Of a stretch of 64,000 nucleotides of DNA, positions 21,834 through 45,690 are shown one piece after another. The notes under the pieces are model-generated. The model searched no databases, was not told the DNA's origin, and worked only from the letters and a program-made list of their open reading frames with translations. Both the position numbers and the translations under genes were made by a program. Each line of letters begins with the position of its first letter. Positions within the stretch are counted from its first letter, which is position 1. This DNA is from Ailanthus altissimus (Eukaryota; Streptophyta; Magnoliopsida; Sapindales; Simaroubaceae), in contig CAMPEX010000001.1 of the NCBI GenBank assembly GCA_946807835.1, positions 387,001 through 451,000 of the forward strand, in the 5' to 3' direction.

Positions 21834-21850
21834 TGGCACCGTTATCGGGG
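21834..21850 (+). other. Primer binding site, tRNA-Asp type
   Basis: TGGCACCGTTATCGGGG lies five bases after the LTR. It is close to the TGGCGCCGTTGCCGGGG site of Athila/Tat gypsy elements. Confidence 0.8.
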
Positions 21851-22674: not shown

Positions 22675-22816
22675 ATGCATCGACTTAGAGACAAACGAGG
22701 AAGATTTGTGAGAGAAGTTGAACTAGAAACACCACCACAATTTGTAAGAGAAGAGAATTCACCATCTAATTCATCTTGTAATTCTAAAATAATGAGCCAA
22801 CACGAGGATAACTGTG
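22675..22816 (+). pseudogene. Gypsy gag, N-terminal piece
   Basis: From ATG 22675 the frame reads MHRLRDKRGRFVRE and continues to a DNC segment near 22814, where SINE sequence begins. Gag resumes at about 32436 after the SINE and the 9.4 kb insertion. The piece is basic at the start and has no recognisable domain by itself; assignment rests on position after the leader and on the continuity at 32436. Confidence 0.6.
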
Positions 22817-22997
22817 AGGATACGCACCCAGTTAGTCTGACAAGCCGGGACATACCGGTCCCAGTGGGCCATCACTGGTCCAGGCCTCCCAAGTGGCCTC
22901 CATTCACTCAAAGCATACCCCCAAGGAATCGAACCCGGGTGGGTTATACCACCTCAAAATGCCTAACGAATCCGTCCTTGTACCACTTGAGCTGGCC
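22817..22997 (-). mobile_element. tRNA-derived SINE
   Basis: This is a minus-strand SINE of about 180 bp. Its head GGCCAGCTCAAGTGG lies at 22997-22983 and contains an A box (AGCTCAAGTGG, 22993-22983). The B box GGTTCGATTCC is at 22935-22925, about 50 bp further, the spacing of a pol III internal promoter. Target duplication: ATAACTGTG at 22808-22816 against ATAACTGCG at 32434-32442, now separated by the later LTR element. It interrupts the gypsy gag. A real tRNA gene is unlikely, because the sequence runs on well beyond tRNA length without a cloverleaf 3' half. Confidence 0.8.
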
Positions 22998-23001
22998 ATA
23001 A

Positions 23002-25858
23002 AAGCTGTCACGCCCCAGACCCAAAAGATCCGACACACGACATCACTTACATTCATTCACTGCATGTGCACTCATAAATAATATTACACAAAATTTTCAA
23101 CTTTCATTCAACACAGAAATCCTTAGCAAGTTGCTCATAAGTTCAACACTAAAATCAACCTTAACCTAACATATAAGTATAAACTTCTCTTGACAATATT
23201 TAAACATTCATTTCAATTTCTTTTAGAATTATAGCAATTGAATTATGACTGGGACAATTATTAAACCGGAGATACGCAGAGTTTTCTCAGAGATTAACAC
23301 TCTACTACGTCACCAGTAGCAACTTTGTTACCGGGAGCCCAGAATATATCCATTGCAAATTCTTACTTAAAATCATCCAATAACCACACTTTATAAAACT
23401 TAAACCAAATCCAATCCACACACAATGAAATAATACATAAGTATTTATTCAATAGGGACAAACCAAATATCCTATCCCACGTGTCCCCAAATGAAACACA
23501 CAACAACCTAGCAACTTAGGGAACCCAAGGAACAGCAGAAGCCTTGCCAAATCCGCTAAGCCCACATGCACCTTATTTACCTGAAATCACCATAAACTAT
23601 AATGAGTATAAAACTCAGTAAGCATACTAATTTTTCATATATCAAATACAAATACATATATGTACACAATGCATATGTATGATATGCTGTGATCAATCAA
23701 AATCATAATCTTATCAAATCACATATCATGTAAGCGCTTACACATTCTTTCAAAACACATAATAGGAATACCATTACTCAACTACTACTTAGTAGGACTT
23801 ACATATCACATATCACATAATGAGCCAAATGTCACTCGTAGGTGACATACCGTATGAGAGGAATAGTACAAGTGAGGCCTTTAAATCACACATACATAAC
23901 GCTTATGCCCGAAGGTAAAAGCCAAACCCTCACCCTGATCATCGGTGAGTCCTCTCACATGTACCTATACGCCACCACACGAATGTGATGACTCACACTT
24001 CCTTTAGGTACCAATAGGATCCTCCCTACATACGGAACACATAACATATACCAATCCCGAAGGAAAGGCCACACATAAAGGCTCCACAAATCACATAAAA
24101 TGCCTACTAAGTTAACAGTGAGTTCAAGTACCCTCAAATCACAAAATATTTCTCATGGACATATTACACTTCAAAAGCTTTCTTTGTTAAACGCATCTTA
24201 TTTTGGAAAGCTCACTTTCAAAAAACACATGTATGTCCATGCTCAATGTCAATGCTCACATTCATAAACATATATTCACATTTCATATCAAAATATACTT
24301 TGACATATCATAAACATATTCTTAACCCCATTTACAAAATCATACAAAACAATAATTATGTTTATTGTGATTCCAGTAGTAAGTCTAGTATACTTACCTC
24401 TTAACACTTTCAGCTACAAGGCTTAAATCTCCTTAACCTATCAATGGAGATTAATCCTTTCATAAGCCTCACAATTCACACAAAATACTTTAAATAGCTT
24501 ACAAAATTATACACAATGCATTTATCACATCAAATTGGTCTAAATATTTGGTTTCTCAAAACCTGTCATTCTGACCACTTACACTTAACAAAAATTTCTA
24601 ATACATCAAATGATGTCCAATTACTCCGAAATTAGAATATATCATTCTTGACTCATATATACTTCTTATATATGAATATTATATCAAAATTCCTACACAA
24701 TCCATTCCATACACACCATCGAATCCAAACTACAAACCTGACAGGATCAAGATACTTACTGAACAGTATTCAATCTCCCAATTTTATAAAATCATATACT
24801 AACTCAAAAATTATAAAACTACCACATAATTACTCTTGACACATATCTCAGTCCATGATAAATATTTGGCTTCCAAATAACTGCCAAAAGTATTTTAAAA
24901 CTATTTTATTTCATAACTTTAAAAATCTGTTAATCAAATACTACAATGAGCTGATACACTTTAGAAATTCATAACACTTCAACCACATTGATCCAAATTC
25001 TCAATTCCGAGTATATCATATTAGACATATAAAATTATCATATTCCACAAATTCATAATTTTTAGAGATCATTCAGCAGGTCAAAAATTATTTTCCACTG
25101 TATCATACTGTTTACACAGGAAATTTCCAGAATTCCAGGGTCATTTTGGTAAATTCACTATAAATTCAATTTCCGAGATTTTCAGTCGATTAAAAGTCTC
25201 AGATGATCCTAAACATGTCTAATTTCATATACTCAAAATTCAAAACCAGAATCGAATCACAACAATTTATACAATTCCTAGATCAAGAGGTTATCCAGCA
25301 GAAATTCCATAATTCATCATGATTTATCAAACTATCTTATAGATCATCATCAATTCTCATATGATCTTACGAAATACACAACAAATCCTCAATTATACAT
25401 ATTTTCAGAAATCAAAACTTAAAGGAATTAACTTAATTAATACCAATAAATTGAGAAATACGTATGATATACCTCTTGAAATTCAAATTTCTAATTTCTT
25501 CTTCTTTTTCTTCTTCTTCTCCTCTTTCTCTCTCCTCTATTTCTCTCTTCTCTCTCTTAAAATTGGTAGCTCGACCTAAAAATGGTAAATTAGGGTTTAA
25601 AAGTGTATTTTTATACTAAGAGGCTAATTTTTGATATTTACAAATTTGCCCCCAAAACTTTCAAAGTATAACAATTTGGTCCCTAAAATAAATCTAAAGT
25701 CATACAAATAAACCCAATACTAATCGTATATCCTTAACCTATAAAAATATTACTAATAACAATATATAATTCAAGTATCACCAACATACAAATAAAATAC
25801 GTATATTTATATATATAAATATACATATTCTTACCGGTTATGGATACTGGTTACTACA
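23002..25858 (-). repeat. 3' LTR of the LOG-bearing element
   Basis: It is 2,857 bp, the same length as 29577-32433, and I found no difference in the stretches compared. The short reading frames at 23955-24137, 24648-24839 and 25361-25579 recur unchanged in the other LTR. On the element strand it starts TGTAGTAACC and ends near GGGGCGTGACAG. A CT-rich tract at 25498-25558 becomes a GA-rich tract near the element's start. Confidence 0.92.
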
Positions 25859-25861
25859 ATT

Positions 25862-25880
25862 CTCCCCTCCTTATAAGAAT
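25862..25880 (-). other. Polypurine tract
   Basis: On the minus strand it reads AAGGAGGGGAGA immediately before the LTR start, preceded by GAGGACGAAATTC. This is the usual end of Tekay-type chromovirus interiors and the only clear pol-side remnant left. Confidence 0.85.
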
Positions 25881-26742
25881 TTCGTCCTCGAAATTCATAA
25901 CTTAAGCACATAGATGAGGATACTTAGATCTCATTTCTTCTTCTCATTCTCAATTTTCCTTTTCAACTGTATAGTTTATTCATAAAACATTTACAAAACA
26001 ATCTTCCTTGTATATAGGATTTGCTCATTGTGGTCCAAAATCCTAATAAATACTCATTCATATGTTAGATTATCTCTAAGTTGGCTCATAGCTGAGTATA
26101 CGAGAGGAGTACGAAACATATATCCATAAAATAAACATATGACACACATTATGGACTTATAAAATTATACACACATATTTTTATTCTTTTTTTTTTTCCC
26201 ATTCGTTCAATATTTAATGGGTATCTATACACTTCACCTTTCATTCATTAAAGAATAACATAGATGTAGAATACCCATACTAATCTCTTACATAAAATTC
26301 TTAACTCCTTTAAAAATTTTAATCCCTTCAACATATACTCATACGTCATAATATCATTCACTACCTTGATATCATTAAAAAAAAAATGTAGTATTTCTAC
26401 GCAACTAAGTTGTCATTCAAATCAGAATATTGAAAGCATTATCTTAAACGATCAAAAATCAACTTCAATAAAAAGACCTTTAGTTCAACTGATTCTTAAA
26501 CTATAGATCTTAACATTATATCTCTTACTTTAACTCTTAAAAAAAATAGTCCACCTTATTGGACATCATTTTCTCATTGAGATTGACATGTCTGCTTTTT
26601 CTAATATGCTCGATTTCAAATAGAAAAGATTCTACTAGCACAATTACTGCGATGGCAAATATGATTCTTTTAACTATTCCTTTAACGTCATCCACGTAAA
26701 AGGAAAGGACAAAACGATTATTGATTTTCTTTCATAAAACTC
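25881..26742. other. Interior of the LOG-bearing element, before the first gene
   Basis: This is AT-rich DNA between the polypurine tract and the TATA box of the 386-residue gene. No pol domain or other reading frame is visible on either strand. The last 100 bp (from about 26640) may be promoter for the downstream gene. Confidence 0.5.
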
Positions 26743-26750
26743 TATAAATA
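26743..26750 (+). promoter_or_regulatory. TATA box of the 386-residue gene
   Basis: TATAAATA lies 63 bases before the ATG at 26813, within CTCTATAAATAGCC, a good plant core-promoter context. Confidence 0.65.
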
Positions 26751-26812
26751 GCCTAAACCTCATAATCACTTTTCTAGCAATAAATAAAACCAACCTTCTT
26801 ACCATCTTCATA

Positions 26813-27973
26813 ATGAATCCCATTATCATAACTCCTCCTGTTCCTTTTTCTCCACCACAATTTCCAGACCTAATCAAAACCAGAACACTCCATTCCCGTG
26901 CCAAAGAATTCATCAGACACTACGCCATCTTAGCAGTCCAAGAACACGGCCTCACAGTTCTTGGTGGCCCTTTGTTCAACTTAGAATACCCTTTCTTTCA
27001 CCTGCACTCTTTTTTCCCATTTTCTCAATGGTCCAAACCTGTCCTTTACTTGTTATGGTACCTGTTGGATCTGTATACAATCGCCATGGAATTCCCATTA
27101 CTTATAACCCTCCAAAAATTAGAAAAATGTGATGAAGATCATCCAGCCCTGATTTTTCTCCAATGGTTTTACCCAAAGACATGGTGGATAACTAAATTTC
27201 AATACATGATTGCAAACAACACAAATGCTGCAGTCCCCAGACAACATCTTTGGTCAGTCTTACTTCTCCAACGGAAAGGTATGATTATTTCAGATCACGA
27301 GATTCATTATTACCCCACTGTTAAGGATTACTTCACATTTACCCTTTCACTAAAGGGATCAATTAAGCTCTGGCCTGAAGAAGTAATCCAACAAAAGAGA
27401 GAACTTGAAAGAATTCTTGCTCAGGAAAATCAAATAATTCCTCCGTCTGTTTGGATCTCCCCAGAAGATGCTGCGCCTTGGGAACAGGTTGAAGCTGACT
27501 TTGCAGAAGACCTGAATTTTGCCAATATACTCAAATTCCAACAAAGACAAAAATATCATCTTTCACATCTCAGAAATACAAATTACTCTACCCACCATCA
27601 CCATATCCCAAACATGACTTATTATGCCAGATACAGACAAGCAATGGATAACCTTCACCAATGGCCTCAGCTAGCTGTCCTGACAGAACCTACCCAATCT
27701 CAGCCAGTTGTCCCGACAGAACCTGACCAACGCCAACCCAATCTTGACTTATCCCTCTTTCAAGACTCACAACATTATCTAACCGACACCCAAATCCAAG
27801 AGGAAGCCAGCACATCCCTCATCCAGACCAGCTCACCTGCAGAAGATCAAGATATGGTAGACCCACCTTCCACTCAGCCAGAGCCCTCATTCAATGTATG
27901 GGAACAACAACTCCATAAGTTTCTCTCTCACGGATATGACACAGATGAAAGCGATCAGGGAGACTCATTTTAA
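26813..27973 (+). CDS. Unrecognised 386-residue protein in the LOG-bearing element
   Basis: This is an intact frame with an ATG 63 bases after a TATA box and an AATAAA signal 170 bases after its stop. I do not recognise the family. Residues 20-180 are rich in aromatic and hydrophobic residues, with a hydrophobic stretch at 76-100 and a Trp/Tyr/Phe-rich patch at 116-131 (WFYPKTWW). Residues 187-245 are charged and probably helical. HHHH occurs at 261-264. Residues 285-360 are Pro/Gln/Glu-rich with a short repeat (TEPTQSQP at 291-298, TEPDQRQP at 302-309). The tail is acidic (DTDESDQGD). There is no zinc knuckle, protease or polymerase motif, so it is not an ordinary gag or pol. It is antisense to the retrotransposon and co-oriented with LOG. 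Intactness in such a decayed window argues that it is recent or under constraint. It could be a captured host gene or derive from another mobile or viral element. Confidence 0.75.
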   Translation: MNPIIITPPVPFSPPQFPDLIKTRTLHSRAKEFIRHYAILAVQEHGLTVLGGPLFNLEYPFFHLHSFFPFSQWSKPVLYLLWYLLDLYTIAMEFPLLITLQKLEKCDEDHPALIFLQWFYPKTWWITKFQYMIANNTNAAVPRQHLWSVLLLQRKGMIISDHEIHYYPTVKDYFTFTLSLKGSIKLWPEEVIQQKRELERILAQENQIIPPSVWISPEDAAPWEQVEADFAEDLNFANILKFQQRQKYHLSHLRNTNYSTHHHHIPNMTYYARYRQAMDNLHQWPQLAVLTEPTQSQPVVPTEPDQRQPNLDLSLFQDSQHYLTDTQIQEEASTSLIQTSSPAEDQDMVDPPSTQPEPSFNVWEQQLHKFLSHGYDTDESDQGDSF

Positions 27974-27985
27974 CCTACATTGTTG

Positions 27986-28003
27986 TTTCTGTTTTTCACA
28001 GAA
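27986..28003 (+). other. Stem-loop after the 386-residue gene
   Basis: TTTCTGT and ACAGAAA form a seven-base stem around a four-base loop, 13 bases after the stop codon. Its role is unknown. Confidence 0.5.
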
Positions 28004-28145
28004 ACTAGATCCGTGTTGCTCTATCACATCAAAGAGAGACTGATTACTGCTTTATCTTTATGTCAAGTGTGCTTTATCTTTCTTCATATCTGCTTTTAAT
28101 CTATCGGCCAAAAATTAATGTTAAGACCACAAAATCTTTGTAATT

Positions 28146-28151
28146 AATAAA
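28146..28151 (+). terminator. Polyadenylation signal after the 386-residue gene
   Basis: AATAAA lies in an AT-rich 3' flank 173 bases past the stop. Confidence 0.5.
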
Positions 28152-28413
28152 GTTAATTTGGCCTCATGTCCAAAGTCCAATTGTTAGCTCAAAAAGTCTT
28201 CAAGTCATTGATATATTGTCGACCATTAGTGCCAAAATGGCTAAGTCCCTAAATCCATGAAATAGGCCTTTATTGACTTTTCTTAATTATCTTACCTAAC
28301 TTATCACACTTCCGACACAATTTTTTTTTTGTTTTACCTCACCAGAATCGAGAAAAATATATACTTGAACATACTTACACATATGCTCCACAACTATTAT
28401 CAATTTGTTTCTC
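28152..28413 (+). promoter_or_regulatory. Intergenic region, probable LOG promoter
   Basis: This is 260 bp of AT-rich DNA between the two genes. It includes a T run at 28320-28330. No reading frame or known repeat is seen. Confidence 0.4.
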
Positions 28414-28421
28414 TATAAATA
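28414..28421 (+). promoter_or_regulatory. TATA box of the LOG gene
   Basis: TATAAATA in the context CTCTATAAATAC lies 61 bases before the ATG at 28482. Motif and spacing are almost the same as for the upstream gene. Confidence 0.7.
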
Positions 28422-28481
28422 CATTATTATTGCATCCTTATACAAACTCAAAAATATTCAAGGATTAGGGTGAGCATAACA

Positions 28482-29135
28482 ATGGAGGAAACCTCAGCTC
28501 GTCGATTCACAAAAATTTGTGTCTTTTGTGGATCCAACCCTGGGAATACTGAAGAGTTTACAAAAGTTGCAGAAAATCTTGGTAAGGTATTAGCTGAGCG
28601 AAATATACATTTAGTATATGGAGGAGGTAACCGTGGGTTAATGGGGTCTGTAGCAAAAGCAGCACACAATAATGGTAGTCGCGTTTTGGGTATCATTCCA
28701 AAACCTCTAGCTATTGAAAATATTGTAGGAAAAACAGTTGGGGATGAGTTACAAGTCTCATCTATGCACGAGCGAATGGCTCAAATGCTTAGGCATGCGG
28801 ATGCTTTCATAGCTCTACCAGGAGGTTTCGGGACCTTGGAGGAAATTTTTCAAATTGTCTCATGGGCACAATTACAAATCCACCAAAAACCCATTGGTTT
28901 GTTAAATGTTAATGGTTTTTACGACGGGTTGATATCTTTTCTTGACTATGCAGCGGGAACACAATTCATCCCACTTCTAGCACGACGGATTCTTATTTCA
29001 GCTCCAACTGTTGATCAACTGATTGATCAATTGCAGTCTTTTATTCCTCTGTCTAATCCAACATTGCATCAGTTAGATTGGTCTACTCATGACAGTCAGA
29101 AGAAGCGCAAAATAGACTTAAATCTCACTCCGTAG
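28482..29135 (+). CDS. LOG-like: LOG-type cytokinin riboside 5'-monophosphate phosphoribohydrolase
   Basis: Family role: LOG enzymes release active free-base cytokinin from cytokinin riboside 5'-monophosphate, giving ribose 5-phosphate, in cytosol and nucleus. The 217-residue protein has full family length. It shows KICVFCGS (11-18), the nucleotide-binding loop YGGGNRGLMG (46-55), GIIPK (70-74), MHERM (95-99) with the conserved Arg, and the signature PGGFGTLEE (113-121). The Lys that follows the Arg in many LOGs (RK) is Met here. The C-terminus has KKRK (207-210) and DLNLTP (212-217). I start it at ATG 28482; an in-frame GTG 12 bases upstream is not a likely plant start. Plant LOG genes normally have several introns and this one has none, suggesting a retrocopy or capture of a processed transcript. 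It lies antisense inside a young LTR retrotransposon with its own TATA box and AATAAA. Function is confident; activity and expression are inferred from intactness. Confidence 0.93.
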   Translation: MEETSARRFTKICVFCGSNPGNTEEFTKVAENLGKVLAERNIHLVYGGGNRGLMGSVAKAAHNNGSRVLGIIPKPLAIENIVGKTVGDELQVSSMHERMAQMLRHADAFIALPGGFGTLEEIFQIVSWAQLQIHQKPIGLLNVNGFYDGLISFLDYAAGTQFIPLLARRILISAPTVDQLIDQLQSFIPLSNPTLHQLDWSTHDSQKKRKIDLNLTP

Positions 29136-29189
29136 CCTCTATTGTATTTTTGTTGCTGCTATTGTTGTTGTGTTGTTGTTTTCCTTTTC

Positions 29190-29195
29190 AATAAA
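29190..29195 (+). terminator. Polyadenylation signal after LOG
   Basis: AATAAA lies 55 bases past the LOG stop, after a GTTGTTGTT-rich stretch. Confidence 0.6.
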
Positions 29196-29560
29196 AGTTG
29201 TTTCAATTGATGTCTTCAATACTCTACTTCTCTATATTTTGTCATTGAGAAAATTATCTCAATTTACTCTATCACATGCAAATTATCATTATAAGATATT
29301 CAACATCACTCTTACTAAGCATATTAGTCATAACTTAAAAGAAAATCTAAATGGTAACATTAAGATCCACAAGGTACCATTATCCACAACAACAACAATC
29401 TTAGCAGCTCTTGGATACTGTGTCATCTTCACAAAATCATACAAAATTTAAGGAATATGTCAAACTTTTACACAACAAAGCTACAAATACAATCCTAAGG
29501 ATTTGGCATCTGCTCGGTTCCCTTGACTCGACACTTAAAAGTCTACAGAATCATATCTTA
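29196..29560 (-). other. 5' interior of the LOG-bearing element
   Basis: This lies between the LOG 3' end and the primer site. On the element (minus) strand a frame begins ATGACACAGTATCC near 29428 and encodes about 30 residues with a run of Val. It could be the stub of the original gag start, cut off where the captured cassette begins. No domain is recognisable. Confidence 0.4.
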
Positions 29561-29572
29561 GCTCTGATACCA
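29561..29572 (-). other. Primer binding site, tRNA-iMet type
   Basis: On the minus strand this reads TGGTATCAGAGC next to the right-hand LTR. It fixes the element's orientation as minus. Confidence 0.9.
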
Positions 29573-29576
29573 ATAA

Positions 29577-32433
29577 AAGCTGTCACGCCCCAGACCCAAA
29601 AGATCCGACACACGACATCACTTACATTCATTCACTGCATGTGCACTCATAAATAATATTACACAAAATTTTCAACTTTCATTCAACACAGAAATCCTTA
29701 GCAAGTTGCTCATAAGTTCAACACTAAAATCAACCTTAACCTAACATATAAGTATAAACTTCTCTTGACAATATTTAAACATTCATTTCAATTTCTTTTA
29801 GAATTATAGCAATTGAATTATGACTGGGACAATTATTAAACCGGAGATACGCAGAGTTTTCTCAGAGATTAACACTCTACTACGTCACCAGTAGCAACTT
29901 TGTTACCGGGAGCCCAGAATATATCCATTGCAAATTCTTACTTAAAATCATCCAATAACCACACTTTATAAAACTTAAACCAAATCCAATCCACACACAA
30001 TGAAATAATACATAAGTATTTATTCAATAGGGACAAACCAAATATCCTATCCCACGTGTCCCCAAATGAAACACACAACAACCTAGCAACTTAGGGAACC
30101 CAAGGAACAGCAGAAGCCTTGCCAAATCCGCTAAGCCCACATGCACCTTATTTACCTGAAATCACCATAAACTATAATGAGTATAAAACTCAGTAAGCAT
30201 ACTAATTTTTCATATATCAAATACAAATACATATATGTACACAATGCATATGTATGATATGCTGTGATCAATCAAAATCATAATCTTATCAAATCACATA
30301 TCATGTAAGCGCTTACACATTCTTTCAAAACACATAATAGGAATACCATTACTCAACTACTACTTAGTAGGACTTACATATCACATATCACATAATGAGC
30401 CAAATGTCACTCGTAGGTGACATACCGTATGAGAGGAATAGTACAAGTGAGGCCTTTAAATCACACATACATAACGCTTATGCCCGAAGGTAAAAGCCAA
30501 ACCCTCACCCTGATCATCGGTGAGTCCTCTCACATGTACCTATACGCCACCACACGAATGTGATGACTCACACTTCCTTTAGGTACCAATAGGATCCTCC
30601 CTACATACGGAACACATAACATATACCAATCCCGAAGGAAAGGCCACACATAAAGGCTCCACAAATCACATAAAATGCCTACTAAGTTAACAGTGAGTTC
30701 AAGTACCCTCAAATCACAAAATATTTCTCATGGACATATTACACTTCAAAAGCTTTCTTTGTTAAACGCATCTTATTTTGGAAAGCTCACTTTCAAAAAA
30801 CACATGTATGTCCATGCTCAATGTCAATGCTCACATTCATAAACATATATTCACATTTCATATCAAAATATACTTTGACATATCATAAACATATTCTTAA
30901 CCCCATTTACAAAATCATACAAAACAATAATTATGTTTATTGTGATTCCAGTAGTAAGTCTAGTATACTTACCTCTTAACACTTTCAGCTACAAGGCTTA
31001 AATCTCCTTAACCTATCAATGGAGATTAATCCTTTCATAAGCCTCACAATTCACACAAAATACTTTAAATAGCTTACAAAATTATACACAATGCATTTAT
31101 CACATCAAATTGGTCTAAATATTTGGTTTCTCAAAACCTGTCATTCTGACCACTTACACTTAACAAAAATTTCTAATACATCAAATGATGTCCAATTACT
31201 CCGAAATTAGAATATATCATTCTTGACTCATATATACTTCTTATATATGAATATTATATCAAAATTCCTACACAATCCATTCCATACACACCATCGAATC
31301 CAAACTACAAACCTGACAGGATCAAGATACTTACTGAACAGTATTCAATCTCCCAATTTTATAAAATCATATACTAACTCAAAAATTATAAAACTACCAC
31401 ATAATTACTCTTGACACATATCTCAGTCCATGATAAATATTTGGCTTCCAAATAACTGCCAAAAGTATTTTAAAACTATTTTATTTCATAACTTTAAAAA
31501 TCTGTTAATCAAATACTACAATGAGCTGATACACTTTAGAAATTCATAACACTTCAACCACATTGATCCAAATTCTCAATTCCGAGTATATCATATTAGA
31601 CATATAAAATTATCATATTCCACAAATTCATAATTTTTAGAGATCATTCAGCAGGTCAAAAATTATTTTCCACTGTATCATACTGTTTACACAGGAAATT
31701 TCCAGAATTCCAGGGTCATTTTGGTAAATTCACTATAAATTCAATTTCCGAGATTTTCAGTCGATTAAAAGTCTCAGATGATCCTAAACATGTCTAATTT
31801 CATATACTCAAAATTCAAAACCAGAATCGAATCACAACAATTTATACAATTCCTAGATCAAGAGGTTATCCAGCAGAAATTCCATAATTCATCATGATTT
31901 ATCAAACTATCTTATAGATCATCATCAATTCTCATATGATCTTACGAAATACACAACAAATCCTCAATTATACATATTTTCAGAAATCAAAACTTAAAGG
32001 AATTAACTTAATTAATACCAATAAATTGAGAAATACGTATGATATACCTCTTGAAATTCAAATTTCTAATTTCTTCTTCTTTTTCTTCTTCTTCTCCTCT
32101 TTCTCTCTCCTCTATTTCTCTCTTCTCTCTCTTAAAATTGGTAGCTCGACCTAAAAATGGTAAATTAGGGTTTAAAAGTGTATTTTTATACTAAGAGGCT
32201 AATTTTTGATATTTACAAATTTGCCCCCAAAACTTTCAAAGTATAACAATTTGGTCCCTAAAATAAATCTAAAGTCATACAAATAAACCCAATACTAATC
32301 GTATATCCTTAACCTATAAAAATATTACTAATAACAATATATAATTCAAGTATCACCAACATACAAATAAAATACGTATATTTATATATATAAATATACA
32401 TATTCTTACCGGTTATGGATACTGGTTACTACA
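29577..32433 (-). repeat. 5' LTR of the LOG-bearing element
   Basis: It is 2,857 bp and apparently identical to 23002-25858. On the element strand it is the promoter-bearing LTR and would drive transcription leftward, antisense to both carried genes. Confidence 0.92.
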
Positions 32434-32435
32434 AT

Positions 32436-33660
32436 AACTGCGTTAGAACTCTGAAAGATTACTTACATCCTACTCACACAGCCACACCATCATGCATTAT
32501 ATTTCCACCTAACATACCACATTCGAATTTTAAACCTAGAATGATACAACTTCTGCCCACTTTTCATGGTCTAGATAATGAAAATCCTTATGTACATGTT
32601 AGAGAATTTGAATAGGTAATTGCCACCTTTCATAGCCAACATGAAGCCATAGACACTATTAGGCTTAAATGTTTCCCTTTTTCTTTGAAAGACAAAGTAA
32701 AGAGTTGGTTATACTCTTTAAGACCGAGGTCTATAGGAACTTGGGCAGAAATGACCCAAACATTTTTTAATAAATACTTCCCACACACAAAACTAATGGC
32801 CTGAAAAGATAAATTTCTTCCTTCTCCTAAAAAGACAGTGAAACCTTATATCAAGCTTGGGAAAGGTTTAAAGAGTTGCTAAATCTGTGCCTTCACAATG
32901 GGTATGAAAATTGGTGTTTGGTTAGCTATTTTTATAAGGAATTCACAATTAAAGAGCACCAATTTGTTGAGATGATGTGTAATGGGGAGTTTTTTCACAA
33001 AGATCTTGAGGAGGCCATGGAATTCCTTAATGACTTAGCCGAAAAAGTTTATACATGGACTGGACCTAGTGCTACAGAAAGAAAAAATAGGTCACGACCT
33101 AGTGGCATTTTTCATCTTAGAGAAGAGGATAGCCTTAAAGCCTAGTTAGAGGTCTTAACTAGGGAATTAGAGGCCTTAAAAATCAAAGATAGAAGGGCCA
33201 CCCATACGGTTGCTAGGATTGAGTCACATGATGTATGTTTTTTCTGTAGAGGAGCGGAACACTTAGCTCAAGATTGCCCTACTTATAGTGAGATAAGAGG
33301 GATATATGAGGAATAATGTAATGCCTTAGGGATGTACAAGAATTTTTATTCACCCTACTCTGAAACTTATAATCTTAGCTGGAGAAATCACCCAAACTTT
33401 AGTTGGAAATCTGACCAACAAGCCAACAACCATGGGAAGCAAGAACAGCAAGCACCCAAGTCTTATGATGCACCTCAATATAATGCACGACCAGCAGGAG
33501 TCCTTTAGAGGATACATTACAAGCATTTATGGAGGCACAAAGTAAGACTAATAAAAAATTTGAAACAATTCTTGCATAAGTGGTAGACGAAAACAAAGAA
33601 ATCAAGAGTCAAATCACTAAGTAGACCAATGCCTTAATTGTACAAGAGCGAGGTAAGTTT
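32436..33660 (+). pseudogene. Gypsy gag, main part
   Basis: It resumes after the insertion with CVRTLKDYLHPT and the capsid-like core (LLPTFHGLDNENPYVHVREFE, 32540-32612), then FPFSLKDKVKSWLYSL near 32680. A zinc knuckle CX2CX4HX4C (CFFC, then H and C) sits at 33236-33277. Several in-frame stops (for example TAG at 32613) and frameshifts break it. The core resembles the gag pieces of E (7471-8050) and D (53760-54890). Confidence 0.85.
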
Positions 33661-38800: not shown

Positions 38801-39087
38801 GACACGTTTTTCCTAATAGTGCTGTCAAAATCGAAGACCCCACTAATGAAAAACTTTTCAAAGTGAATGGATAGCGGCTGAAAAGCTATGTGGAAAAGGT
38901 AGACCATTCTATATACCTAGACAAGATTCCTTTTATTCTTGCTTTTATTTTCTTTTATATTTTATTTTATTTTTCGATCAAGTGGCGGATACGGTACTCT
39001 GTGACTATTAAAGTCGGTTTCTCAGTTCCTTAAAAACTGTCCTTCAAACTGTGCATTCATCTCTTTTCTTTTTCACTTTCTTTTAAA

Positions 39088-39550
39088 ATGGATCGCATTC
39101 TTGCCAACTTTAAAAAACATTTTCCTTAATTGCCTCAAAATGCTCTACTTAAGATTTACAAAGCACGGTGTGAAAGACTATGGCTATTAATGTTGAGTAA
39201 TATCCCTACGTACATTCGTTGGTTAATTGAAGTCAAGGTTCGATTATCTGGTGACTCTACAAATGATTTTATTTCTTTTATGCCTGGTCTTAGAAGAAGA
39301 TCTTATGCCAAAAGGAGACGAGCAAAAAGGTTGCAAGTCTGTGATAAATGTGCTCGATAGAATTATAACTAGAGTTATCGTTCTTTATGATTTGTATCTA
39401 GAAATCGAGAAGATAAAATTTAGTTCATTAAGGATGGACTAAGTAAGAAGTCTTTGGATGATATCCTATTAACTCTTGAGATGCATCCCTATGGGCTTGT
39501 GCAACATGAACTTCTTGATTTATGGAATAAATTCAAAAATGAACATTAAC
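39088..39550 (+). pseudogene. Gypsy post-integrase reading frame
   Basis: Downstream of pol an ATG at 39088 opens MDRILANFKKHFP. After a stop a 76-codon frame follows (39130-39360) rich in Lys/Arg (RRRSYAKRRRAKR). An overlapping frame (39227-39442) carries LYDLYLEIEKIKFS. Together they suggest one decayed protein of about 150 residues between integrase and the 3' LTR. Athila elements may have an extra ORF here, but I see no envelope-like membrane segments, so the identity is open. Confidence 0.4.
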
Positions 39551-40760
39551 GGTATAGTTTCGGGAATCTGACTCTAAAAGACCTTGTTTTCCTATTTATT
39601 AAAAAATAGATAATGGGGTTTGACATTTGATTAAAATGACAGAATAAAAAGTTTATTCTTGAAATCTTGATACGTATTCTAAGTCAAATTAGAATGGCAG
39701 AGTAAGGAGTTTTATTTCTAACTTTTGAAATGCATTTTAACTAACTTGTTGTTGTTTTGTTTTGTATTTTATGCATTGTTGTTTATTGCTTGTAGTCTTG
39801 GTAATTCTTGTATAAACGAATTTGCTTTTCTGCCTAGGTATGATTTTGAAATTGTTTAGGTTGAGTCACTGTTTCTATTTAGGTTACTAAAGAATGACTT
39901 CCAAAATATTTTTGAGCACAACGCTAAGCCTTGTGGTAAGATAGATGATTCAATTTATATAGCCAAAAGAATTCTCATGTTTAAGTATATATTTTTCTAA
40001 TTTCACATATCTTTTGTGAGTAAATGGAAAGGTTGAAAAAACAGCTTATGAACCTTCATTGATCTTTTGAATTGGTTAATTTTTATTTAGATTGATATTA
40101 TTTGAATTAAGGAATATGTTGGCTGCATTTGTGTATAATATATTTTGGTGAGAAACTTTTGTAATACTTCCTTGTATACTTAAAAAAAAAAAATTTAAAA
40201 AGAAAAATACCAAAAAAAATAGAAAGAAAACAAAAAGAAGAATCAATTCAGTTTAATAAAATTTTCATTCAATTTTAGAAGAGAAATATTTTGTAAGACA
40301 GTTTTCTCACCAAGCTATATTTGTATTATTCTTACAAGACAATTGAAATCTTAAAGCTGGTGCATGTCAAGAATGATTGATTTCTAAAACGATTAATTTT
40401 CCTATCTTTGGATCAATGTTAGTTTGTATGTCTATCCTTAAAATTGACTTTTTCTGAAGTGCTTAACTGTTTTCCAATTCCATAAGAGAAATCCTAACCT
40501 TTTAAACAGTCATACACTTGTGAGGATATGGAGTTGAGGCTTTTACTTGGAGAAATTCTCAAGGCTATATCTATTGTGATTTGTGGTAAGATGGTTATGG
40601 CTTAGTTCACACACACACAATTTTTGAAAGTTATAATTGAAAAAACTATAATAACAATAGTGATCTTGAACTGACTTTTTATTTGAAATGCTTAGACAGT
40701 TTTGCATATTCTATTTATGCTTGAATTGCTAGAAATTAGCAATAAACTGGTTAGGAGCTA
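39551..40760 (+). other. Gypsy 3' untranslated region
   Basis: This is AT-rich non-coding DNA ending at the 3' LTR. It has an A-rich stretch at 40180-40250. I see no clear polypurine tract just before 40761. Confidence 0.6.
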
Positions 40761-44352: not shown

Positions 44353-45690
44353 CTAGCTTGTACATTCATTTAAAATTTTTGATCTTGCACGTTTGTTACT
44401 ATAACTAGCTTGTACATACATGACATTTCTCACTATATCCAATATATAATACCCATTGAGTAACTGACACTCAGCTAACAAAACATCATGCATATCATAT
44501 AAATACAAAGAACAATTCCGTATATTTACACGATATCCTTCACTATCAAGTACAGAAAGGGATACAATCTGTCTGATGATATTGGGTACATAATAAAAAT
44601 TATACAAAATAAATTTTCTATTACAAATGAGAAGGAAATCAAAATGTCCAATATCTTGGACCTGCAGGAACTCTCCATTTCCCGCTCTTAGCATTACTTC
44701 TCCAGGCTGTAAAATCCTAACTTCCCTCAATCCCTGCAACACATTGCAGATGTGAGAAGAGCACGGGGTATCTAATACCCAGCCAGTACAAGTATCAAAT
44801 GCTAAAGAAATATCAATAATAGTTAAGCACATACCTGAGGGAGTCTCCTTTATAGTGGCAAGGTATCTCGGACAGTTGCGCTTCCAATGCCCATCCTCGT
44901 CGCAAAAGAAACACTTTTCTTTTACTTTCTTTTCCTGAGGCTTGGAAATCTGCTGCCTCTGAGGATCTATCCAAAGTGGCTTCTTTTGTTTCTTCTTCTT
45001 CCCTTTGGACTTCCTAGAAGCCTTTGGGGTAGAAAATGAGGCACCCTGGACCAAGAGGGCTAAGCTCCCTTTATACATGTCCTCATTCACTGTCTTTAAG
45101 AAATTATGAAGCTCAACATATGTTGGGGTCAATCCTTGCATATTGAAGTCCATAACAAACTGTGCAAATGACCCTGACAATGATTGGAAAATTAAACTAT
45201 TCCCCAAGTTATTATTCAGAGAAATGTCCATAACCTCCGATTTCTCGATGTATCTAATCATCTTGAGTACATGGAAACTAACTGAACTGCCCTCGCTCAG
45301 TCTAGCCTAAAAGAGTGCCTTGGCAACTCTATATATCTTAACCTGAGGTCGATCGCCAAAGAGCTCCTTCAAATGCAGCATTATGCTACTAGCACTATCC
45401 ATACGGACACGTTCCCGCTGCAACTCTGTAAACATCGAAGGGAGGATGTACGATTTAACTTTTAAATCGTCATCCAACCATTTTTTATATGTATCCCTTT
45501 CCTCAGGGGAGGCATCATCGAAAACACATCGGGGATTTTCTGATCTATAACATATCCGAGCCTCTGAGAATCCAGCACAAATTTGAGATTCATAAGCTAG
45601 TTTGAATAATTCTTGGTGCCTTTGAGCAGGTGTGCATCGAGTATGCGCACCAAGGGATTTGTAGAGGCTATCAAATTAAATCTTACATAA
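44353..45690 (-). pseudogene. Copia A gag and protease
   Basis: The open part, 44353-45261 (302 codons), shows a basic KSKGKKKKQKK stretch and a zinc knuckle CFFCDEDGHWKRNC. The protease motif is WVLDTPCSSHICN, where family members have DSGAS/TSH, so the Gly is replaced by Pro. It ends with the pre-integrase region (DSEGYRVNIRNCSLYLYD). Gag continues upstream to about 45690 with frameshifts (STNPLVRILDAHLLKG). After the pre-integrase region it runs into stops and then the RNase H tail; integrase and reverse transcriptase are gone. Confidence 0.88.

Follow-up and report, generated by a model that had tools for sequence, protein, structure and literature searches.

An abundant LTR retrotransposon family of Ailanthus altissimus without gag-pol that carries an antisense LOG-family gene and a second gene

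Introduction

Non-autonomous retrotransposons are usually viewed as bare parasites of autonomous ones. Groups that spread without a complete gag-pol set, such as LARD, TR-GAG and BARE-2, either have no coding capacity or retain gag or portions of pol, LARDs being recognized by long terminal repeats (LTRs) above about 4 kb around a non-coding interior. Genes of the LOG family, the usual members of which activate the growth hormone cytokinin, have been linked to LTR retrotransposons, and the 2011 abstract of Steinbauerova et al. reportedly mentions two Athila-like elements with similarity to LOGL4. Here we analyse a 64,000-nucleotide stretch of the Ailanthus altissimus genome (contig CAMPEX010000001.1, positions 387,001–451,000; hereafter the window), which contains an LTR retrotransposon in minus orientation that is without gag-pol and carries, antisense to itself, an intact LOG gene and a second intact gene of 386 amino acids (aa). 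Its family resembles LARD, TR-GAG and BARE-2 in spreading with gag-pol incomplete or absent, but differs in keeping two non-retroviral antisense genes; its LTRs of 2.7–2.9 kb and coding interior place it outside the LARD definition.

The first-pass annotation of the window could name no precedent for a LOG cargo, but a YgdH/LOG domain had already been described in gypsy consensuses of Citrus sinensis, C. clementina and Populus trichocarpa (PMC9289625), which agrees with Steinbauerova et al. These share with the window element a LOG-family open reading frame (ORF) borne by a plant LTR retrotransposon. Reverse transcriptase (RT) was the core around which they were built, whereas the window family has no RT and combines an antisense LOG with an orphan gene, a Met-type primer site and 981 LTR/primer-site junctions; because the screen began from RT, it would miss a family without one. 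The LOG section of that paper makes no mention of pocket residues or of gene exchange between families. Antisense genes inside LTR elements are likewise described for maize Grande (gene23, with its own promoter reported) and Retand (TRP28) (PMC7264820, PMC11963269), but these ORFs sit between pol and the 3' LTR, whereas the window family has no pol and neither of its proteins has a Pfam match to TRP28. The AlkB-bearing Gypsy elements of Phalaenopsis (PMC9289625) share with it an accessory enzyme for modified adenine in a retrotransposon lineage, as predicted for the window; they differ in being 25 kb long, in having Gag-Pol and in encoding another enzyme, with activity shown in vitro where that of the window LOG is predicted.

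In the literature searched, most of it represented by listings of papers, we found no report of an RT-less LOG-bearing retrotransposon family, nor of a high-copy gag-pol-less family with an antisense LOG and an orphan gene that both show purifying selection. LOG on a retrotransposon is thus already known; what is new here is an RT-less, antisense, two-gene and abundant family. On balance, we consider it probable that the window element is one copy of this 981-junction family, without gag-pol in the copies read and mobilized in trans, whose two antisense genes have been kept by selection and whose LOG product serves the element.

Structure of the window element

The two repeats of the element are identical across 2,863 bp (22998–25860 and 29573–32435). 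The LTRs proper, 2,853 bp each, begin on the plus strand with TGTCACG and end with TACTACA, at 23006–25858 (the 3' LTR in element orientation) and 29581–32433 (the 5' LTR), their ends being fixed by other copies of the family. The first-pass annotation had rightly called the LTRs identical but began the left one at 23002; this start, and an alternative at 22998, were rejected because other copies place it at 23006. In element orientation (minus strand) the LTR reads TGTAGTAACC...GGGGCGTGACA and is followed by an 8-nt spacer, GCTTTTAT (29573–29580), that is found in other copies, and then by the primer-binding site (PBS) TGGTATCAGAGC at 29561–29572 (minus), exactly where it had been predicted. 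We take this site to be of the initiator Met tRNA type, both in name and in pairing. The predicted polypurine tract (PPT) is also present, but at about 25859–25872 (minus; AAGGAGGGGAGAAT), abutting the 3' LTR, and not at 25862–25880. Paired LTRs with TG...CA ends, a tRNA primer site and a PPT make this an LTR retrotransposon; in place of the gag-pol that an autonomous element has between its LTRs, the window copy and all 20 further full copies hold two antisense genes and short spacers.

The 3.7-kb interior has no gag-pol, and its only long ORFs are the two plus-strand genes; the remaining ATG frames of at least 60 aa measure just 66–82 aa. On the PPT side, a stretch without a long ORF (25859–26812), which recurs in 20 of 20 full copies, includes the predicted promoter of the first gene, the 386-aa orphan gene at 26813–27973. 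The predicted promoter and 5' leader of LOG (28411–28481), which resemble the LOG leader of a second family described below, precede the gene for a LOG-family phosphoribohydrolase (a predicted activity) of 217 aa at 28482–29135, and the LOG 3' region (29136–29263) can be aligned in part with that of the second family. Each gene has a CTCTATAAATA box ahead of it (26740 and 28411) and an AATAAA signal behind it (28146 and 29190). The first-pass picture of a minus-oriented element, its interior free of pol and holding two intact plus-strand genes with TATA boxes and AATAAA signals, was therefore borne out. Its wording that gag-pol had been 'lost' holds as far as absence goes, in 21 full copies, but loss is a history that absence alone does not tell.

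Copy number, layout and age of the family

A pattern of 31 bases across the LTR end, spacer and primer site, allowing up to two mismatches, occurs 981 times (497 + 484) in the 939-Mb, 37-contig genome, and the reversed-pattern control occurs nowhere. Twenty further full copies (L009–L028), chosen from the LOG match list, lie at distinct loci and share a single layout (LTR, PPT side, 386-aa gene, spacer, LOG, PBS side, LTR) that leaves no room for gag-pol, although the second LTR of three of them (L015, L017 and L024) contains an interruption, is shortened internally or continues beyond the stretch. Clean 5-bp target duplications flank 16 of the 20, the other four being tandem or cut by the stretch read, so that the paired repeats of the window are not an assembly duplication, a risk the first-pass annotation had raised. 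LTR pairs could be compared in 17 copies and differ by 0–9 substitutions per about 2.7 kb, with none at all in eight (three of these have 1–6 gap columns), which indicates that the family amplified recently. The first-pass annotation had asked whether copies with the same LTRs also carry LOG and the 386-residue gene; both lie inside the LTRs, and not outside them, in all 20.

For a sample independent of LOG, we turned to the first 25 junctions listed. Twenty of them were retrieved, one on the wrong side of its junction, which left 19 usable junction-picked copies; of the five skipped, four appear with an intact LOG among the best 150 LOG places. LOG was present in 19 of 19, with an open frame of 217 aa in nine and of 213 aa in one, the other nine being broken or incomplete (one of them half-length). 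It is thus found in all 40 copies examined (21 full copies including the window, and 19 picked by junction), which is not the pattern of a one-off insertion into a family that otherwise has gag-pol, and no gag-pol copy was seen in the interiors of the 21 full copies, out of 981 junctions. Within the LOG-picked set, LOG is intact in 19 of 20 copies and the 386-aa gene in 10 of 20.

Several further observations concern the copies themselves. The other 20 full copies have about 75–90 extra bases between the two genes that are missing from the window copy (at about 28321–28325). Twelve pairs among the best 150 LOG places lie 6.5–6.7 kb apart on the same strand (e.g. C25:21409154 and 21415734), a spacing that fits tandem copies sharing an LTR, and internal junctions of this type are seen in L022 and L024. 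L020 is inserted beside LTR-end sequence of its own family (TGTCACGCCC), with the duplication CGCCC, and L049 (C6:3076182–3086100) is an older LTR-leader-LTR remnant with an LTR about 89–91% identical and a 7-nt spacer variant.

Selection on the two genes

Variants private to one copy are mostly post-insertion, and those common to several copies are mostly inherited from transposing ancestors; we therefore counted the two classes separately. The LOG test used 39 rows (the window, the 20 LOG-picked copies and 18 of the 19 junction-picked copies, the half-length row being dropped), and that of the 386-aa gene (ORF386) used 21; L046 and L047 look like duplicates. Among LOG variants seen in at least three of the 39 rows, 21 are synonymous, nine non-synonymous and none a stop, where 9.2, 19.8 and 1.1 are expected under neutrality, a ratio of non-synonymous to synonymous change (dN/dS) of about 0.20 (binomial p = 1e-5). 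Private LOG variants number 23, 32 and 4 in the same order (expected 18.7, 38.3 and 2.0; ratio 0.68). The widely shared class keeps this character in the junction-picked rows alone (15/8/0, ratio 0.25, p = 7e-4), and all LOG variants in at least two rows together give 0.31. For ORF386, variants in at least three of the 21 rows number 30/27/0 (expected 16.3/37.9/2.8; ratio 0.39, p = 1e-4), and private ones 26/59/9 (ratio 0.98). Shared and private classes differ for both genes (Fisher p = 0.007 for LOG and 0.003 for ORF386).

Since the shared variants are strongly synonymous, whereas the private ones are nearer neutral, both proteins were probably kept by selection during amplification, and we infer that both were needed in those lineages that went on transposing. 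Selection appears to have kept LOG working as the family spread, and LOG therefore likely helps the element.

A second LOG-bearing family in the same genome

A genome search with a Reevesia LOG (P0016) led to a second family. It gave at least 150 places that are 62–65% identical to the query and lie mostly in 250-aa frames; on the six contigs compared by eye (C1, C2, C4, C11, C25 and C32), none of these was also among the best 150 LOG places found earlier. One of them, L050, was read over 9.9 kb and encodes an aspartic protease, RT, RNase H and integrase, followed by an ORF of 182 aa and a LOG in the sense direction. Six more P0016 places have the same RNase H/integrase region just upstream of LOG, at about 99%, so that pol lies upstream in seven of seven, and 20 further LOG genes of this family are 2–16 bases from that of L050, four of them containing a stop. 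The order of pol, extra ORF and LOG, with RT present, is that of the Citrus and Populus elements (PMC9289625). The first-pass annotation described LOG as cargo of the window element; it does lie inside the window family, but this second, gag-pol-bearing family of the same genome carries it too. We call the second family Athila-type because it resembles, at 70–84% and in many pieces, the element that surrounds the window insertion, which has a TGGCACCGTTATCGGGGA primer site at 21834; for both, the label is our presumption from similarity and not from a lineage tree.

The LOG genes of the window and L050 are 82% identical in DNA (dS 0.52, dN 0.15, ratio 0.29), and their similarity runs from the TATA box (28411) past the AATAAA signal to 29263, becoming weaker toward the 3' part. 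Because this exceeds what an mRNA would carry, LOG and its promoter probably travelled jointly, in the form of DNA or of read-through RNA, and a transfer of the gene between elements is the likely history; alternatively, the two families may have separately captured the same host LOG gene. The Athila-type element around the window insertion has no LOG: the flanks of LOG in L050 (4090–4612 and 5949–6406) nearly adjoin in the window (39085–39607 and 39642–40104).

Between integrase and LOG in L050 (4093–4638) lies a gene matching Viral_NABP (PF05515, a plant-virus nucleic-acid-binding domain; E = 1.9e-7, above cut-off), with Carla_C4 below cut-off, and a relic of this gene with stops is found in the window at about 39.0–39.6 kb. 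The pairing of a virus-like with a hormone-type gene in a single retrotransposon is worth a study of its own.

The two proteins and the LOG active site

The 217-aa protein matches Pfam PF03641 (LOG) with E = 8.5e-40 and TIGR00730 above cut-off; it scores 124 bits against the NCBIfam equivalog NF058542, under the cut-off of 300, a shortfall of little weight because that model serves prokaryote annotation. Its closest solved relative is Arabidopsis At2g37210 (2a33; E = 1.1e-63), which is also the first PDB match of an AlphaFold2 model (pLDDT 81; 52% identity, root-mean-square deviation 1.4), and the gene likely encodes a LOG-fold hydrolase. Host LOG genes have several exons; that of the window consists of one uninterrupted frame. 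For the 386-aa protein, Pfam, NCBIfam and PDB gave no match, and its fold prediction (pLDDT 33) is unusable; a word-based search of 5.8 billion proteins gave one match, a 94% near-copy on a 1,992-bp contig from the source 'lgn'. Neither gene was confirmed in viral contigs, among which records close to the window genome may be absent.

Work on the Corynebacterium enzyme proposes that catalysis depends on Arg99 and Glu122 and that Met96, His97, Lys100, Glu125 and Trp129 make up a prenyl pocket, which is identical in Arabidopsis LOG3, rice and Claviceps (PMC4979012). The window LOG has the PGGxGTxxE motif and both the catalytic Arg and Glu, and of the five pocket residues it keeps Met, His and Trp. 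Arg98, Met99 and Gln124 are invariant across the 39 window-family copies, Glu121 occurs in 38 of them and the motif's first Pro in 36; in the second family, all 21 rows have Ile99 and Gln124, and 20 have Arg98.

Among 121 aligned rows (relatives of 150–245 aa among the 120 matches listed, the window, L050 and two from Arabidopsis), Arg99 occurs in 116 and Glu122 in 117, but Lys100 in only 12. Loss of Lys100 coincides with loss of Glu125: Glu is found at position 125 in each of the 12 Lys rows but in only one of the 109 others, 103 of which have Gln or His there. In a tree of 120 rows, with L050 left out, the window LOG joins P0002, P0029, P0111 and P0005 in a subgroup of five (support 100/99), nested in a 108-row group (100/96) outside which all 12 Lys rows fall. 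Many members of that group come from Reevesia, Populus and Paulownia, often several per genome, and may be element-borne as well.

Plant LOGs with the same critical residues make different products (PMC11593424), and residues alone therefore do not decide what a LOG makes. The first-pass label of a cytokinin-activation gene thus holds as regards the LOG family, but hormone activation goes further than the sequence, two proposed prenyl-pocket residues being replaced. Both families have lost these two residues but retain the catalytic pair of Arg and Glu; we therefore regard cytokinin activation as likely, though not as established, and the substrate could be another N6-modified adenosine monophosphate (AMP).

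What the genes may do for the element

Because the copies read are without gag-pol, the family likely depends for its movement on proteins that another element supplies in trans. In the reading that we favour, each gene would be expressed from its own predicted promoter, independently of the element's genomic RNA, and LOG would hydrolyse N6-modified AMPs to free bases, most simply cytokinin, in a cell with an active element. The resulting local hormone pulse could favour division or meristem identity of that cell lineage, and we propose that new insertions would therefore reach more daughter cells and the germ line.

A number of observations weigh against this. LOG variants in exactly two rows (5/8/1, ratio 0.80) show no constraint, and those of ORF386 (16/22/0, ratio 0.58) show less than the widely shared class; the p-values are optimistic because shared variants are linked by descent and not independent. 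Mean distance to the window in the junction-picked copies is 0.021 for LOG and 0.020 for the non-coding PBS side (0.014 and 0.015 in the LOG-picked copies; LTR 0.032, gene spacer 0.042), so that LOG is overall no better conserved than its non-coding neighbour and the argument for selection comes from the type of change seen. LOG is broken or incomplete in nearly half of the junction-picked copies (9/19), and ORF386 is broken in half of the LOG-picked ones (10/20). Moreover, if the product of a non-autonomous element acts in trans, selection on any one copy is weak. The second family is too invariant to judge selection (nine variants in at least two of 21 rows), its near-neutral private variants (0.93) serving as a useful control. 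The replacement of Lys100 by Met and of Glu125 by Gln in 39 of 39 copies counts on the same side, as alanine at nucleotide-contact residues of the Corynebacterium enzyme nearly abolished activity (PMC4979012), and so does the failure to find a mobilizing partner by primer-site junctions with other spacers.

Part of this would be expected if the genes were passive cargo, captured once, of no use to the element and intact only through very recent expansion. With LTR pairs nearly identical, young copies would be intact anyway, and private variants nearer neutral (0.68 and 0.98) and a LOG no more conserved overall than the adjoining non-coding stretch fit as well. We nevertheless think this unlikely, given the purifying selection on widely shared variants of both genes, the presence of LOG in every junction-picked copy and its conservation as an ORF since the split from the second family's LOG (dN/dS 0.29 at dS 0.52). 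The pocket changes raise a different prospect, which we consider less likely than not: that LOG is active and serves the element, but with a pocket retuned to another N6-modified AMP or signalling nucleotide, for instance in clearing modified nucleotides or damping silencing. The joint loss of Lys100 and Glu125 across the LOG alignment, with Arg99 (116/121) and Glu122 (117/121) staying, speaks for such retuning, as does its occurrence in both families of this genome, although the fold and catalytic residues are still LOG-like and enzymes with the same residues can differ in product, which leaves the residues undecisive (PMC11593424).

Two other accounts seem to us improbable. The antisense transcripts, and not the proteins, might matter, convergent transcription yielding double-stranded RNA that regulates the element; both genes are indeed antisense to the genomic RNA, and regulation by antisense ORFs has been proposed (PMC7264820), but this predicts neither the synonymous excess in both ORFs nor the sense-orientation LOG of the second family. 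We put slightly less weight still on a benefit to the host, in which the plant would use some copies as a dispersed LOG supply and selection would act on it. In its favour, plants normally have a family of LOG genes, and no internal stop interrupts 149 of the best 150 LOG places (a best-scoring list, biased to intact copies); against this, selection seen mainly on variants inherited by several of hundreds of copies fits selection at the level of the element better, and the broken or incomplete genes of the junction-picked sample also argue the other way.

Beyond this locus, we can imagine, as a speculative extension that we hold to be rather less likely than not to be correct, a mobile LOG clade with a rebuilt pocket that lives on eudicot retrotransposons, passes with its promoter between unrelated families and reprograms the host cell through its hormone state or modified-nucleotide pool. 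If so, a family of some 1,000 gag-pol-less copies keeping such genes under selection would represent a non-autonomous element with manipulation of the host, and not replication proteins, as its contribution, and two host-directed genes under purifying selection in such a family would suggest competition through effects on the host cell. The element offers a direct test case for accessory genes of plant retrotransposons, with a small enzyme, solved relatives, clear candidate substrates and pocket changes that make a precise biochemical prediction. Annotation is affected as well: many of the 'LOG genes' listed for such genomes will belong to retrotransposons.

Candidate mobilizing partners

Of six sites with GGGGCGTGACA and another spacer, the one read (L049) is the old LTR-leader-LTR fragment of the window family already described. 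Another 839 sites combine CGTGACA with a spacer no longer than 7 nt; the two sampled, each over the leader, roughly 300 bp of LTR end and a further 1.2 kb inward, did not resemble the window element. The second LOG family was also rejected as partner, since no match between the 9.9 kb read and the window LTR exceeds about 30 bp, a chance-level length; its own LTRs are not delimited.

Insertion site of the window copy

The window element is inserted in gag of the surrounding Athila-type element, adjoining a tRNA-like short interspersed element (SINE) at 22815–22997 (minus), which we presume to be one from its visible A- and B-box-like motifs. The interrupted gag breaks off after ...QHEDNC at about 22815 and resumes with NCVRTLKDY just past 32434. 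A 7-bp duplication, ATAACTG, has its left copy ending at 22814 and its right copy at 32434–32440, past the element, as expected if the element landed in the right-hand duplication of the SINE. An additional copy of the 8-nt spacer, ATAAAAGC (22998–23005, minus), stands outside the left LTR as a non-canonical integration end, and the U5 end was therefore joined untrimmed, or with four bases trimmed. Unlike the 16 comparable copies, the window copy shows no canonical 5-bp target duplication, and among the copies read outside tandem arrays it is the only one with such a spacer end. Elsewhere in the window, 44353–45306 (minus) is a piece of gag-pol with zinc knuckle and Pol_BBD domains, presumably of copia type.

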